Assembly (NCBI GenBank): GCA_017407995.1 | Contig: JAFQVM010000016.1 | Location: 119,375-183,374 of the forward strand | Length of the DNA stretch: 64,000 nucleotides | Direction of reading: 5' to 3' | DNA from: Clostridia bacterium | GTDB lineage: Bacteria; Bacillota; Clostridia; Oscillospirales; Acutalibacteraceae | Shown: one piece after another, positions 57,769-61,432 of the stretch | Layout: the number at the start of each line of letters is the position of its first letter | Numbering within the stretch: position 1 is the first letter of the stretch | The notes under the pieces: generated by a model | The model's database searches: none | The model's input: only the letters and a program-made list of their open reading frames with translations | Told to the model about the DNA's origin: nothing | Position numbers and translations under genes: made by a program

Positions 57769-58305
57769 ATGGCTGAATACATATTGAACACCAATCAATT
57801 AAGAGAATATTGTTCAACTTTAAAAGCTGGAGACAGGGTGTTACTTTCAGGTGAGGTGTTTACATCTCGTGATGCAGCACACAAGCGTTTGAGTGAAATG
57901 TTGAAAGCAGGGGAAGCGCTTCCCTTTGAATTAAAGGATGCCAGCATATATTATGCAGGTCCTACACCTACAAAACCTGGTGATGTAATAGGTAGTTGCG
58001 GACCAACGACCTCGGGCAGAATGGATGTATATGCACCAATGCTGCTTGATGCAGGATTATGCTGTATGATTGGAAAAGGTGAACGTAACAAAGAAGTTGT
58101 TGATGCGATAAAGCGTAATAACTGTGTTTATCTTTGCGCTATAGGCGGTGCAGGTGCATTGGCATCAAAATGTATATCCGAGTGTGAAGAAATTGCATTT
58201 TTTGACCTTGGATGTGAAAGCATAAAGCGTCTTATATTTAATAACTTTCCTCTTGTAGTAGGAATTGACTCGAAAGGCAGTAGCTTGTTCAAAAAATTTT
58301 TTTAA
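57769..58305 (+). CDS. Fumarate hydratase class I beta-type (TtdB/FumA C-terminal) subunit
   Basis: Protein of 178 residues equal to the C-terminal swivelling domain of class I fumarases. It has the family signature GSCGPTTSGRMDVYAP near residues 75-90, IGKGERN, and GGAGALASK. In two-subunit hydro-lyases this beta subunit pairs with a larger alpha subunit that holds the [4Fe-4S] cluster. No alpha gene is adjacent; the neighbour is a coiled-coil protein. It may therefore work with an unlinked alpha subunit for fumarate/malate or tartrate-type dehydration. The start has GGAG close by and the length is normal for the subunit. Confidence 0.85.
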   Translation: MAEYILNTNQLREYCSTLKAGDRVLLSGEVFTSRDAAHKRLSEMLKAGEALPFELKDASIYYAGPTPTKPGDVIGSCGPTTSGRMDVYAPMLLDAGLCCMIGKGERNKEVVDAIKRNNCVYLCAIGGAGALASKCISECEEIAFFDLGCESIKRLIFNNFPLVVGIDSKGSSLFKKFF

Positions 58306-58324
58306 AAAACTTGTAAAAATTCTC

Positions 58325-58353
58325 TTGACAAAGGTGTTTTGCGGGTATATACT
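58325..58353 (+). promoter_or_regulatory. Strong promoter of the T-box unit
   Basis: Consensus TTGACA, 17-base spacer, TATACT; transcription would begin near 58360, at the base of the leader structure. Confidence 0.85.
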
Positions 58354-58359
58354 TACAAA

Positions 58360-58632
58360 AAAATGAATCTTACCCCACAAAGGCTATGACGGAGACAGAT
58401 TTCAGTACTGAAGCTTACAGAGAGTTCGTGGTTGGTGCAAACGGATACTCACGCTGAAAATCGAATCACTCCTGAGCAGAAACCCGAAAGTTTTACCGGT
58501 AGGCGTTTCCGTACGACTGCGTTAAAGTCAAGGGCTTATTGGAGCTTGAGGGCGCTTTTTGCGCTGAATTTGGGTGGTACCGTGGATTAATATCCGCCCC
58601 AGACTTTTGTTTGGGGCGGTTTTGTTTTTTTT
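58360..58632 (+). promoter_or_regulatory. T-box riboswitch, predicted isoleucine-specific
   Basis: The leader has all T-box landmarks. Stem I has K-turn elements (ATGAC...CTGAGC), AG-box AGAGAGT and apical GGTTGGTGCAAAC. The T-box sequence TGGGTGGTACCGTGG is at 58571-58585, and the terminator stem CCGCCCC/GGGGCGG with T-run at 58594-58632. Helix GGAG (58391-58394) pairs with CTCC (58469-58472), and GATTTCAG pairs with CTGAAAATC above the loop. That leaves GAATCA on the 3' side, with the specifier read as AUC (58465-58467) followed by the usual A. The acceptor-pairing bulge TGGT wants discriminator A, which fits tRNA-Ile and argues against Ser (UCA reading, discriminator G). Uncharged tRNA should relieve termination. 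Beyond this element the 58306-58662 gap holds only the promoter and RBS. Confidence 0.9.
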
Positions 58633-58662
58633 AAAATTTTTAATTATGAAAGGGAGTTTACT

Positions 58663-59235
58663 ATGGAAATTATTATTAATGAAATCGCTCAGCGAATACG
58701 TGACCTTCGTGATATTATGGGTTACACAACTGAGGAAATGGCTAAAGCTGTTGGCTGTTCAGAAGAGGAGTATATTGCAGCAGAGAAGGGCGAAGTTGAC
58801 TTTTCTTTCACATTCATTTATAAATGTGCGGAAAAATTTGATGTTGATATGATTGAAATACTTACGGGAGATAACCCGAGACTTTCGTATTATTCAGTTG
58901 TTCGCAAGGATGAGGGTCTTCCCATGAAGCGTCGTTCTGGATTTAACTATTATCATCTTGGATATAGATTTAAGGATAAGCTTTGTGAACCATTCCTTGT
59001 TACGGCGCCTTATTCTGAAGAAGAGCAAAACAAACCTATTCATTTGTCAACCCACGAGGGACAGGAGTTCGACTATATCATTAAGGGAAGCTTAAAGGTA
59101 GCTTTTGAGGACCATGTAGAAGTTCTCAATGAGGGAGACAGTGTGCTTTATAATTCCGCTCACGGTCATGGTATGATTGCTACTAACGGAGAAGATTGTA
59201 CTTTCCTTGCAATTATTCTCAAGAAGCCGGAATAA
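58663..59235 (+). CDS. XRE-family regulator with cupin domain
   Basis: Protein of 190 residues. It has an N-terminal helix-turn-helix (IRDLRDIMGYTTEEMAKAVG; residues 10-65) and a C-terminal cupin barrel (residues about 120-188, with HEGQEFDYIIKGSLKV and GDSVLYNSAHGHGMI). Cupin-XRE proteins sense small ligands and often sit beside the metabolic gene they control, here an acyl-CoA synthetase 40 bases downstream. Both follow the T-box terminator, so their synthesis should be raised when the sensed tRNA is uncharged. GAAAGGGAG provides the RBS. The ligand is unknown. Confidence 0.85.
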   Translation: MEIIINEIAQRIRDLRDIMGYTTEEMAKAVGCSEEEYIAAEKGEVDFSFTFIYKCAEKFDVDMIEILTGDNPRLSYYSVVRKDEGLPMKRRSGFNYYHLGYRFKDKLCEPFLVTAPYSEEEQNKPIHLSTHEGQEFDYIIKGSLKVAFEDHVEVLNEGDSVLYNSAHGHGMIATNGEDCTFLAIILKKPE

Positions 59236-59275
59236 AAAATCATTTTACCATTTTGCGAAAGGAATGAAACAGTTT

Positions 59276-60922
59276 ATGCTGAATTTAAACTTAAAATTTG
59301 TTGATGAATTTTATGATGATAAAGGTAATCTTGTTGATTACAAGCTTAAATGTCCGGATAATTTCAACTTCTCCTATGATGTAGTGGATGAAATTGCAAA
59401 AGCTGAACCTGATAAGAGGGCTATGCTTTGGTGCAATCCTAAGGGCGAGGAAAAGGTCTTTACTTACGGTGATTTAAAATACTATAGCGATAAAACGGCC
59501 AATATGCTCAAGGCAAAGGGTATAGGCAAGGGTGACATGGTAATGGTAATCTTAAAACGTCACTATCAGTTCTGGTTTACCATTCTTGCACTTCATAAGC
59601 TTGGAGCTGTAATTATTCCTGCAACATTTATGCTTGCAAAGCACGATATTGTTTACAGAGTAAATGCAGCAGATATCAAAGCGGTTATATGTACTGGTGA
59701 AGGGGATGTAGCGGCACACGTAGATGAGGCTATGCCCGAATGTCCTTCTTTGAAAATCCGCATCATGGTTAACGGTCAGAGAGACGGTTGGGATGATTTT
59801 ATGTCAGACATGGAAAAAGCTGATGACCATCTCGAACGTGTAGAGACAAAGTATGACGAACCGCTGATTGTTTACTTCTCATCAGGTACTACAGGTAATC
59901 CAAAAATGGCAATGCATGCGCATACTTATGCACTTGCACACATGACAACAGCTAAGTATTGGCACAACGTTGATGCAGACAGCGTTCATCTCACCATAGC
60001 GGATACCGGATGGGGAAAAGCTGTCTGGGGTAAGCTCTATGGCGAGATGTTTATGGAAAGTTGTGTGTTTGTATATGACTTTGATAAGTTTGTTGCAAAT
60101 GAGATACTTTCTATTCTTGAAAAGTATAAAATTACAAGTTTGTGCTGTCCGCCTACAATGTTCAGATTTATGTTGCAGGAAGATGTTGCTTCATATGACC
60201 TCAGCGCTTTGAAATATTGTACAATAGCAGGCGAAGCACTTAATCCAGATGTTTTCAATAATTGGTATGAGCAGACTGGAATAAAGCTTATGGAGGGCTT
60301 CGGACAGACAGAAACTACTCTTCTTATAGCTAATAGGGTAGGAATGGAGCCAAAACCGGGCTCAATGGGTAAGCCGATGCTTCATTATGATGTTGATATT
60401 GTTGACGAAGACGGTAAATCTGTACCGCCTGGAGTAACCGGAGAAATCATTGTTCATACTGATAAAGAAGTTCCGTTCGGTCTGTTTAAGTGCTATCACC
60501 GTGATGAAGCAAAAACTAATGAGGCCTGGCACGACGGTGCTTATCATACAGGTGATACAGCGTGGAAGGATGAGGACGGATATTATTGGTATGTCGGAAG
60601 AACGGACGATGTTATCAAATCTTCCGGTTACAGAATCGGACCGTTTGAGATAGAGAGCGTTCTTACTGAGCATCCTGCGGTTTTAGAGTGTGCTGTTACA
60701 GGTGTACCTGATGCGTTGAGAGGCAATCTCGTTAAGGCTACTATTGTTCTTAAGCCGGGGTTCGAGCCTTCCGAGGAGCTTAAAAAGGAATTGCAGGTAT
60801 ACGTTAAAAAGGAGACTGCTCCGTATAAATATCCAAGAATTGTTGAATTTGTTGAATCTCTTCCAAAGACAGTTAACGGAAAAATAAGACGTGCTCAAAT
60901 CAGAGCCAACGACTTAAAGTGA
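59276..60922 (+). CDS. Medium-chain-type acyl-CoA synthetase (AMP-forming)
   Basis: Protein of 548 residues starting MLNLNLKFVDEFYDD; ATG 59276 follows AAAGGAATG by 11 bases. ANL-superfamily motifs are YFSSGTTGNPKMAMH (P-loop), GEALNP, EGFGQTETTL, YHTGDTAWKDEDGYYWYVGRTDDVIKSSGYRIGPFEIE and the C-terminal lysine in PKTVNGKIRR. The segment ADTGWGKAVWGKLYGE is typical of the medium-chain (MACS) group, which takes short branched or medium acids. The product is an acyl-CoA. With an isoleucine T-box upstream, 2-methylbutyrate is an attractive substrate, but that is inference. Its 3' end overlaps the convergent SOD gene by nine bases. Confidence 0.88.
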   Translation: MLNLNLKFVDEFYDDKGNLVDYKLKCPDNFNFSYDVVDEIAKAEPDKRAMLWCNPKGEEKVFTYGDLKYYSDKTANMLKAKGIGKGDMVMVILKRHYQFWFTILALHKLGAVIIPATFMLAKHDIVYRVNAADIKAVICTGEGDVAAHVDEAMPECPSLKIRIMVNGQRDGWDDFMSDMEKADDHLERVETKYDEPLIVYFSSGTTGNPKMAMHAHTYALAHMTTAKYWHNVDADSVHLTIADTGWGKAVWGKLYGEMFMESCVFVYDFDKFVANEILSILEKYKITSLCCPPTMFRFMLQEDVASYDLSALKYCTIAGEALNPDVFNNWYEQTGIKLMEGFGQTETTLLIANRVGMEPKPGSMGKPMLHYDVDIVDEDGKSVPPGVTGEIIVHTDKEVPFGLFKCYHRDEAKTNEAWHDGAYHTGDTAWKDEDGYYWYVGRTDDVIKSSGYRIGPFEIESVLTEHPAVLECAVTGVPDALRGNLVKATIVLKPGFEPSEELKKELQVYVKKETAPYKYPRIVEFVESLPKTVNGKIRRAQIRANDLK

Positions 60923-61432
60923 GTGTTCCATACCGTAGATAACGCCGCAGGCAATTCGACTGCCGGCATTACCTGACGGATTGGTTCTAAAATCATCGGG
61001 GGAATCGTGAATAATCACGGTTCTCCCGTTTACTTGTTGCGGTATAAACCTATCGGTGTATGTCGCCATGTATGAGTAGCCGTTGTTAGAAAATACTGAC
61101 GGTAAGTCACCTGTGTGTGCAGGATGTCTCGGTGCATTTTTCAAGTTTGCCATATGTCTTTCCGGAGATACTTTAAGCTCGATGTGTGTGCTCTCAAGAT
61201 GGTCTCCTGCGCTTGAAAAGTCATCCAACTCACAAGCTCCGCCTTCGTGTATGTGAATGGCAAAAGGTTCTGCACGGTTGGGAAGACCAAGAAGCTCAAC
61301 CTCTACCATAGTGCCATCGAGCCACGGATAAAATCTTACAGTACCGCTTAAATCCGGTGCAGTACTGTTGCCTGTAACGTCTGCTTGAAAATAATAATAG
61401 TTAGAAAGTGCATCTGATGCTTTATTAAACAT
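60914..61432 (-). CDS. Cu/Zn superoxide dismutase-like protein, no signal peptide
   Basis: Protein of 172 residues of the SodC family. Copper/zinc ligands are all present: HIHE, SAGDH, HPAHTGDLP and VIIHDSPDDF, together with the disulfide Cys pair (GGACELDD and RIACGV) and the channel Arg in GSRIACG. There is no signal peptide or lipobox, so it would be cytosolic, unlike most bacterial SodC, which is exported. AGGAGG precedes the start. Convergent with and overlapping the acyl-CoA synthetase; no terminator is visible between them. It may protect against oxygen or act as a metal store. Confidence 0.88.
   Translation of the reverse strand: MFNKASDALSNYYYFQADVTGNSTAPDLSGTVRFYPWLDGTMVEVELLGLPNRAEPFAIHIHEGGACELDDFSSAGDHLESTHIELKVSPERHMANLKNAPRHPAHTGDLPSVFSNNGYSYMATYTDRFIPQQVNGRTVIIHDSPDDFRTNPSGNAGSRIACGVIYGMEHSL

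Follow-up and report, generated by a model that had tools for sequence, protein, structure and literature searches.

An isoleucine T-box of the transcriptional type stands ahead of an XRE-cupin gene and a gene for a MACS-type acyl-CoA synthetase in a 64,000-nucleotide stretch of clostridial DNA (hereafter the window), a finding that we confirmed in the leader RNA itself. From sequence comparison, we consider it very likely that this leader belongs to a tRNA-coded salvage system that would turn 2-methylbutyrate into isoleucine and, in relatives, isobutyrate into valine. This kind of T-box and the physiology of the acids are already known; what is new is a tRNA-sensing leader on the branched-acid route. 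We found no published account joining T-box control with this route in the passages of open papers searched.

The original prediction had described a complete T-box with an AUC specifier and a TGGT bulge, followed by the XRE-cupin gene and then the synthetase gene, and all of these elements were borne out by the Rfam, Pfam and structure-database matches (Table 1). The pairing of GGAG with CUCC at the base of stem I leaves AUC and one A, which fixes the specifier as AUC, and the covariance model placed no other codon there. The promoter-like site was the top scorer of 11 sites found (shuffled sequences gave 7.0), and the terminator-like site was the only one within positions 58250–61000 (shuffled sequences gave 1.8). 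The 5' arm of the terminator-like hairpin overlaps the 3' arm of the antiterminator, so that the two structures would compete. When the window sequence was folded alone, the stretch holding the terminator did beat shuffled sequences (z −3.97), whereas neither stem I (z 0.41) nor the antiterminator (z −0.98) did so. Support for stem I comes from the covariance model and from covariation, not from single-sequence folding.

Table 1. Features of the T-box leader and the two genes behind it, in window positions
Feature	Position	Strand	Basis and details
Sigma-70-like promoter, TTGACA-N17-TATACT	58325..58353	+	Pattern scan, 11/12; consensus match alone
T-box leader, RF00230	58377..58604	+	Rfam, 98.2 bits (gathering threshold 93), E 2.1e-20
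Stem I lower helix	58391..58394 (5' arm GGAG); 58469-58472 (3' arm CUCC)	+	
Specifier codon AUC (Ile)	58465..58467	+	Read from the position of the lower helix; control, the ileS leader of this genome
Antiterminator	58572..58600	+	Rfam alignment; UGGU bulge at 58575-58578
Intrinsic terminator, CCGCCCCA...TGGGGCGG then T-run	58594..58619	+	Pattern scan and folding
XRE-cupin protein, 190 aa (HTH_3 and Cupin_2)	58663..59235	+	Pfam, both domains above cut-off
MACS-type acyl-CoA synthetase, 548 aa	59276..60922	+	Start ATG picked by eye; the mechanical ORF list has TTG 59177

The genome that contains the window (31 contigs totalling 1.67 Mb; completeness 86%) yielded 13 T-box matches, and the names of the genes behind them were checked against NCBIfam. 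The leader of ileS reads GAAC-AUC-A-CUCCCGAGC, and its AUC-A-CUCC context is identical to that of the window leader. The window T-box thus shares both RNA family and specifier with classical ileS leaders, but it precedes an acyl-CoA synthetase rather than a tRNA synthetase gene or one of the usual biosynthetic genes. The helix-anchored reading also gave the expected codon before valS (GUA), ilvB (GUC) and a serine acetyltransferase gene (UGC), as well as before proS, pheS, thrS, serS, trpS and trpB. The model alignment had misplaced one proline and two tryptophan leaders (L002, L009 and L011), which read CCC, UGG and UGG by eye. The ileS piece scored 579 bits against the TIGR00392 cut-off of 621; this piece and that of valS fall below their cut-offs because our loci cut these genes. 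Discriminator bases were informative in part: they agreed with the bulge for threonine (U73/UGGA), tryptophan (G73/UGGC) and valine, phenylalanine and proline (A73/UGGU), whereas serine (G73/UGGU) requires wobble. No tRNA-Ile was present among the 30 loci examined, which were taken from 40 tRNA hits. We also observed an orphan AUC T-box in this genome (G000:C1:7779-8021; L010, L015) with no listed ORF of at least 80 aa for about 375 nt, followed by a malQ-like gene (judged by eye) and then by a Por/Vor-type oxidoreductase with fused subunits.

The AUC leader recurs in front of related genes. We assembled 109 related XRE-cupin loci: set A comes from the 29 top-matching genomes of the order (173 of 295 genomes match), and set B comprises the best 80 loci from matches in named contigs. 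A MACS gene adjoins the XRE gene in 26 loci of set A and 76 loci of set B, and is missing beside it in 7 of the 109. T-boxes lie directly upstream of XRE in nine loci of set A and in 35 of set B (33 complete and 2 cut by contig ends, L077 and L091). All 42 complete leaders ahead of an XRE–MACS pair or fusion read AUC (43 of 43 counting the window), and this conservation makes a chance T-box or a chance AUC reading unlikely. The leader of Angelakisella massiliensis (L064) also reads AUC. The 43 include three leaders with a degenerate T-box sequence (L078, L081 and L056) and one with an intervening ORF (L047), which resembles pentapeptide-repeat proteins by eye and lies between the T-box and the XRE-cupin gene (L047:528-1443). 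The count leaves aside the two cut leaders, three T-boxes (L076, L082 and L124) and two weak matches (L125 and L072), none of these five being directly upstream of XRE; L052 and L135 are probably one genome. In four loci (L030, L035, L076 and L082), the XRE-cupin–MACS genes sit directly behind leuS.

Leaders were found with R1, a model built from 25 leaders and used only for this purpose. R1 leans towards AUC because its leaders had passed a filter requiring ATC; it nonetheless found leaders reading GUA, GUC, CUC and UUC and the other leaders of the window genome, and a looser specifier reading made before the ATC filter gave AUC wherever the leader parsed well. No R1 match was found in the 12 Eggerthellaceae loci listed in set B. 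Among the 25 leaders, 95.0% of cells pair, compared with 78.4% after shuffling, which does not remove kinship, and sliding the partners by 1–3 columns lowers pairing to 42–51%. Changes on both sides occurred at 18 of 25 pairs; in the lower helix of stem I, 100% of cells pair and all four pairs are double-changed somewhere. These counts were made on an Rfam-style structure. The RNAalifold structure of the same leaders, in which invariant columns join the specifier region to the T-box sequence by base pairing, was rejected for this purpose, although it remained inside R1.

The synthetase resembles enzymes that act on short branched acids. Its best match in the PDB is MacsMa of Methanosarcina acetivorans (3ETC, 687 bits, compared with 398 bits for ACSM2A), which, unlike the window synthetase, is an archaeal enzyme. 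The MacsMa acyl pocket, reportedly described in Meng 2010, is taken to consist of W237, W254, K256, W259, C298 and G351; this list fits the 3ETC chain at an offset of 23 for its six residues. All six are retained in the window enzyme, compared by eye with three in ACSM2A and five in 4-hydroxybutyrate-CoA ligase. The six residues are present in all 83 MACS rows compared, whether Ile- or Val-coded, and thus mark the group rather than the acid used. PMC10455477 also gives Trp259, and the Gly replacing Trp416 of Acs, for MacsMa. It names 2-methylbutyrate as the preferred substrate, in agreement with the preference attributed to an archaeal MACS in the original prediction, and it states that MacsMa completes the CoA step with 2-methylbutyrate and reportedly not with many other substrates. 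A gene resembling Cu/Zn superoxide dismutases (60914-61432, minus strand) converges on the synthetase gene and overlaps its end by 9 nt.

Among NCBIfam models, the closest is MbcS (NF047394), a branched short-chain acyl-CoA synthetase family for which the window enzyme scored 502.5 bits, under the curated cut-off of 850, and we therefore did not file it under MbcS. According to PMC10026030, 2-methylbutyrate and isobutyrate are the acids that MbcS of Staphylococcus aureus activates for fatty acid synthesis; its product goes to lipids. By this precedent and as the best family match, an MbcS-like enzyme might prime branched fatty acids with 2-methylbutyryl-CoA when isoleucine is short. We regard this reading as improbable, given that the genes are tied to a ferredoxin-dependent 2-oxoacid oxidoreductase of the VOR type and, at one locus, to citramalate synthase, and that Ile and Val T-boxes pair singly with the two predicted acids.

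Conversion to isoleucine, the reading we prefer, would require further enzymes, and genes for them are present. A 2-oxoacid:ferredoxin oxidoreductase, which the original prediction had proposed looking for elsewhere, was found on another contig of the window genome: VorB alpha scored 543.2 bits (cut-off 399), next to a beta partner below all cut-offs shown, a probable gamma subunit and two ORFs, one ferredoxin-like and the other NTPase-like. A branched-chain aminotransferase (503 bits; cut-off 307), citramalate synthase (642.6 bits; cut-off 450) and acetolactate synthase (ilvB) were also present. No R1 T-box match lies near these VOR genes (L169), and none stands beside those of eight other T-box genomes of the split type (L171–L178); by contrast, the L170 VOR locus has a T-box reading UCC. 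Across the 295 genomes, with thresholds of E 1e-20 for XRE-cupin and E 1e-120 for VorB, 159 had both, 14 of the 173 with XRE-cupin lacked VorB, 17 had VorB only and 105 had neither among the matches listed (Fisher p 3e-45, kinship ignored). Of the 57 XRE-bearing genomes searched for VorB, 54 gave a match above its cut-off; one of the three others is 60% complete.

A search of 41 T-box-bearing genomes found citramalate synthase in 34, and in L068 it follows the AUC T-box, XRE and MACS genes directly in order (558.8 bits; cut-off 450). Its presence makes salvage optional for isoleucine in the window genome. The scavenging of an acid for isoleucine, as originally proposed, is supported by the 3ETC match, by the VorB and aminotransferase genes and by the operons of relatives; the proposal needs amending in that salvage is an extra route in this genome and that the system extends beyond isoleucine. 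The enzyme could instead make propionyl-CoA, to be carboxylated to 2-oxobutanoate and then converted to isoleucine by the acetolactate pathway, for which ilvB is available. The window genome, which is incomplete, has no ilvA among its three PALP hits (cysK, trpB and thrC), a point in favour of a propionate route. We nevertheless think this route very improbable: citramalate synthase can already supply 2-oxobutanoate, the CoA step of MacsMa is reportedly completed with 2-methylbutyrate and not with many substrates (PMC10455477), and the Val-coded paralog does not fit.

That Val-coded paralog appears in operons of related genomes that also support salvage. In at least 31 genomes, VorB lies no more than 8 kb downstream of XRE on the same strand. 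We analysed 30 of these (G142 was left out), chosen for VorB proximity and not for T-boxes, by a simple ORF choice in which not every gene was scored in every locus. R1 T-boxes precede XRE-cupin–MACS fusions in 29 of the 30 loci (L149 has none, and that of L162 is cut); the 49 leaders comprise 26 AUC, 21 GUA, 1 GUC and 1 cut leader. In 20 loci, the two fusions are led by different codons, AUC (Ile) at the first and GUA or GUC (Val) at the second, and both fusion frames are open in 19 of them, the second frame of L153 being interrupted in the sequence used. NTPase-like, ferredoxin-like and VOR genes follow the fusions, preceded in several loci by an extra ORF, roughly 360 or 260 aa long. Six Eggerthellaceae loci also have vorB downstream of XRE-MACS, and one Methanomassiliicoccaceae locus has it beside XRE-MACS on the other strand, in each case without T-boxes.

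The fusions join XRE-cupin and MACS in a single frame of 755–837 aa, stop to stop where complete (L052–L056, L058, L135 and L139–L168), giving an enzyme that carries its own HTH domain. The XRE-cupin gene is the first behind the window leader, and 7 of the 109 XRE loci have no adjoining MACS; on these grounds, the T-box might chiefly act for XRE-cupin, which would in turn regulate other genes, with the synthetase as a passenger. This is the least probable of the alternatives, as MACS adjoins every T-box-led XRE gene (9 of 9 and 35 of 35 in the two sets) and each of the 30 VOR-linked loci contains at least one XRE–MACS fusion frame.

The codon is accompanied by a change in the enzyme. Residue 246, which sits between the MacsMa pocket residues W254 and K256, is Gly in all 26 Ile-coded fusions and Ala in all 21 Val-coded fusions. 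On the tree, two codon changes and two residue changes are coupled in both independent pairs, although two such changes are not enough to be significant (p 0.5 by a sign test). Residue 246 is Met in 4 of 19 split Ile-coded enzymes and Ala in three loci without a readable Val T-box (L123, L158 and L162); the codon–residue rule is therefore not general. Taken with the operons, these patterns make it reasonably likely that the relatives have an acid-salvage regulon of fused XRE-cupin/synthetase paralogs, each with a T-box matching its product amino acid (AUC with 2-methylbutyrate, GUA or GUC with isobutyrate), sharing one VOR and choosing between acids through Gly or Ala.

We propose that uncharged tRNA-Ile would stabilize the antiterminator and allow read-through into the XRE-cupin and MACS genes, as the structure and specifier suggest. 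The synthetase, judging from homology and its pocket, would convert salvaged 2-methylbutyrate to 2-methylbutyryl-CoA, from which the VOR-type enzyme could form 3-methyl-2-oxopentanoate by reductive carboxylation; control of an AMP-forming synthetase by uncharged tRNA argues for this assimilating direction. The branched-chain aminotransferase, whose gene is present, may then yield isoleucine. In related genomes, the Val T-box would act on a second, presumably isobutyrate-specific, XRE-cupin–MACS fusion near the VOR genes. XRE-cupin most likely senses the acid or its acyl-CoA and tunes the synthetase gene or enzyme, which is the weakest step of the model. An Ile T-box on a predicted 2-methylbutyrate enzyme, together with the relatives' operons, makes the on-demand formation of amino acids from salvaged acids probable.

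Robinson and Allison reportedly described isoleucine formation from 2-methylbutyrate in rumen anaerobes in 1969. PMC2812497 and PMC10658910 report this route for rumen anaerobes and methanogens; the chemistry predicted here is the same, whereas the proposed control by a tRNA-sensing leader is new. Our model would give this rumen physiology a genetic and regulatory basis in gut clostridia, and it would allow the codon to predict which acid each synthetase uses and in which direction it works. It also suggests how some gut species, by releasing branched acids, may provide others with amino-acid feedstock.

Leucine T-boxes were observed near several of these genes. Of the four loci with leuS ahead of XRE-cupin–MACS, the two that extend far enough carry a CUC (Leu) T-box some 1 kb upstream of leuS (L076:148-373 and L082:48-270). 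CUC T-boxes also lie near Ile/Val MACS–VOR operons (L151:165-404, L155:10792-11018, L158:880-1120 and L159:336-565), in the last three loci beside a 2-isopropylmalate-synthase-like gene. In the window genome, a CUC T-box (G000:C1:791-7709; L015, L006) precedes a MaoC-like gene and then an ACT-MBL-like gene (judged by eye), in a cluster that also contains a gene for a 2-isopropylmalate-synthase-like protein, whose scores stay below its cut-offs, and one for a TIM-barrel-like/acyl-CoA ligase fusion, as well as an amidohydrolase-like ORF.
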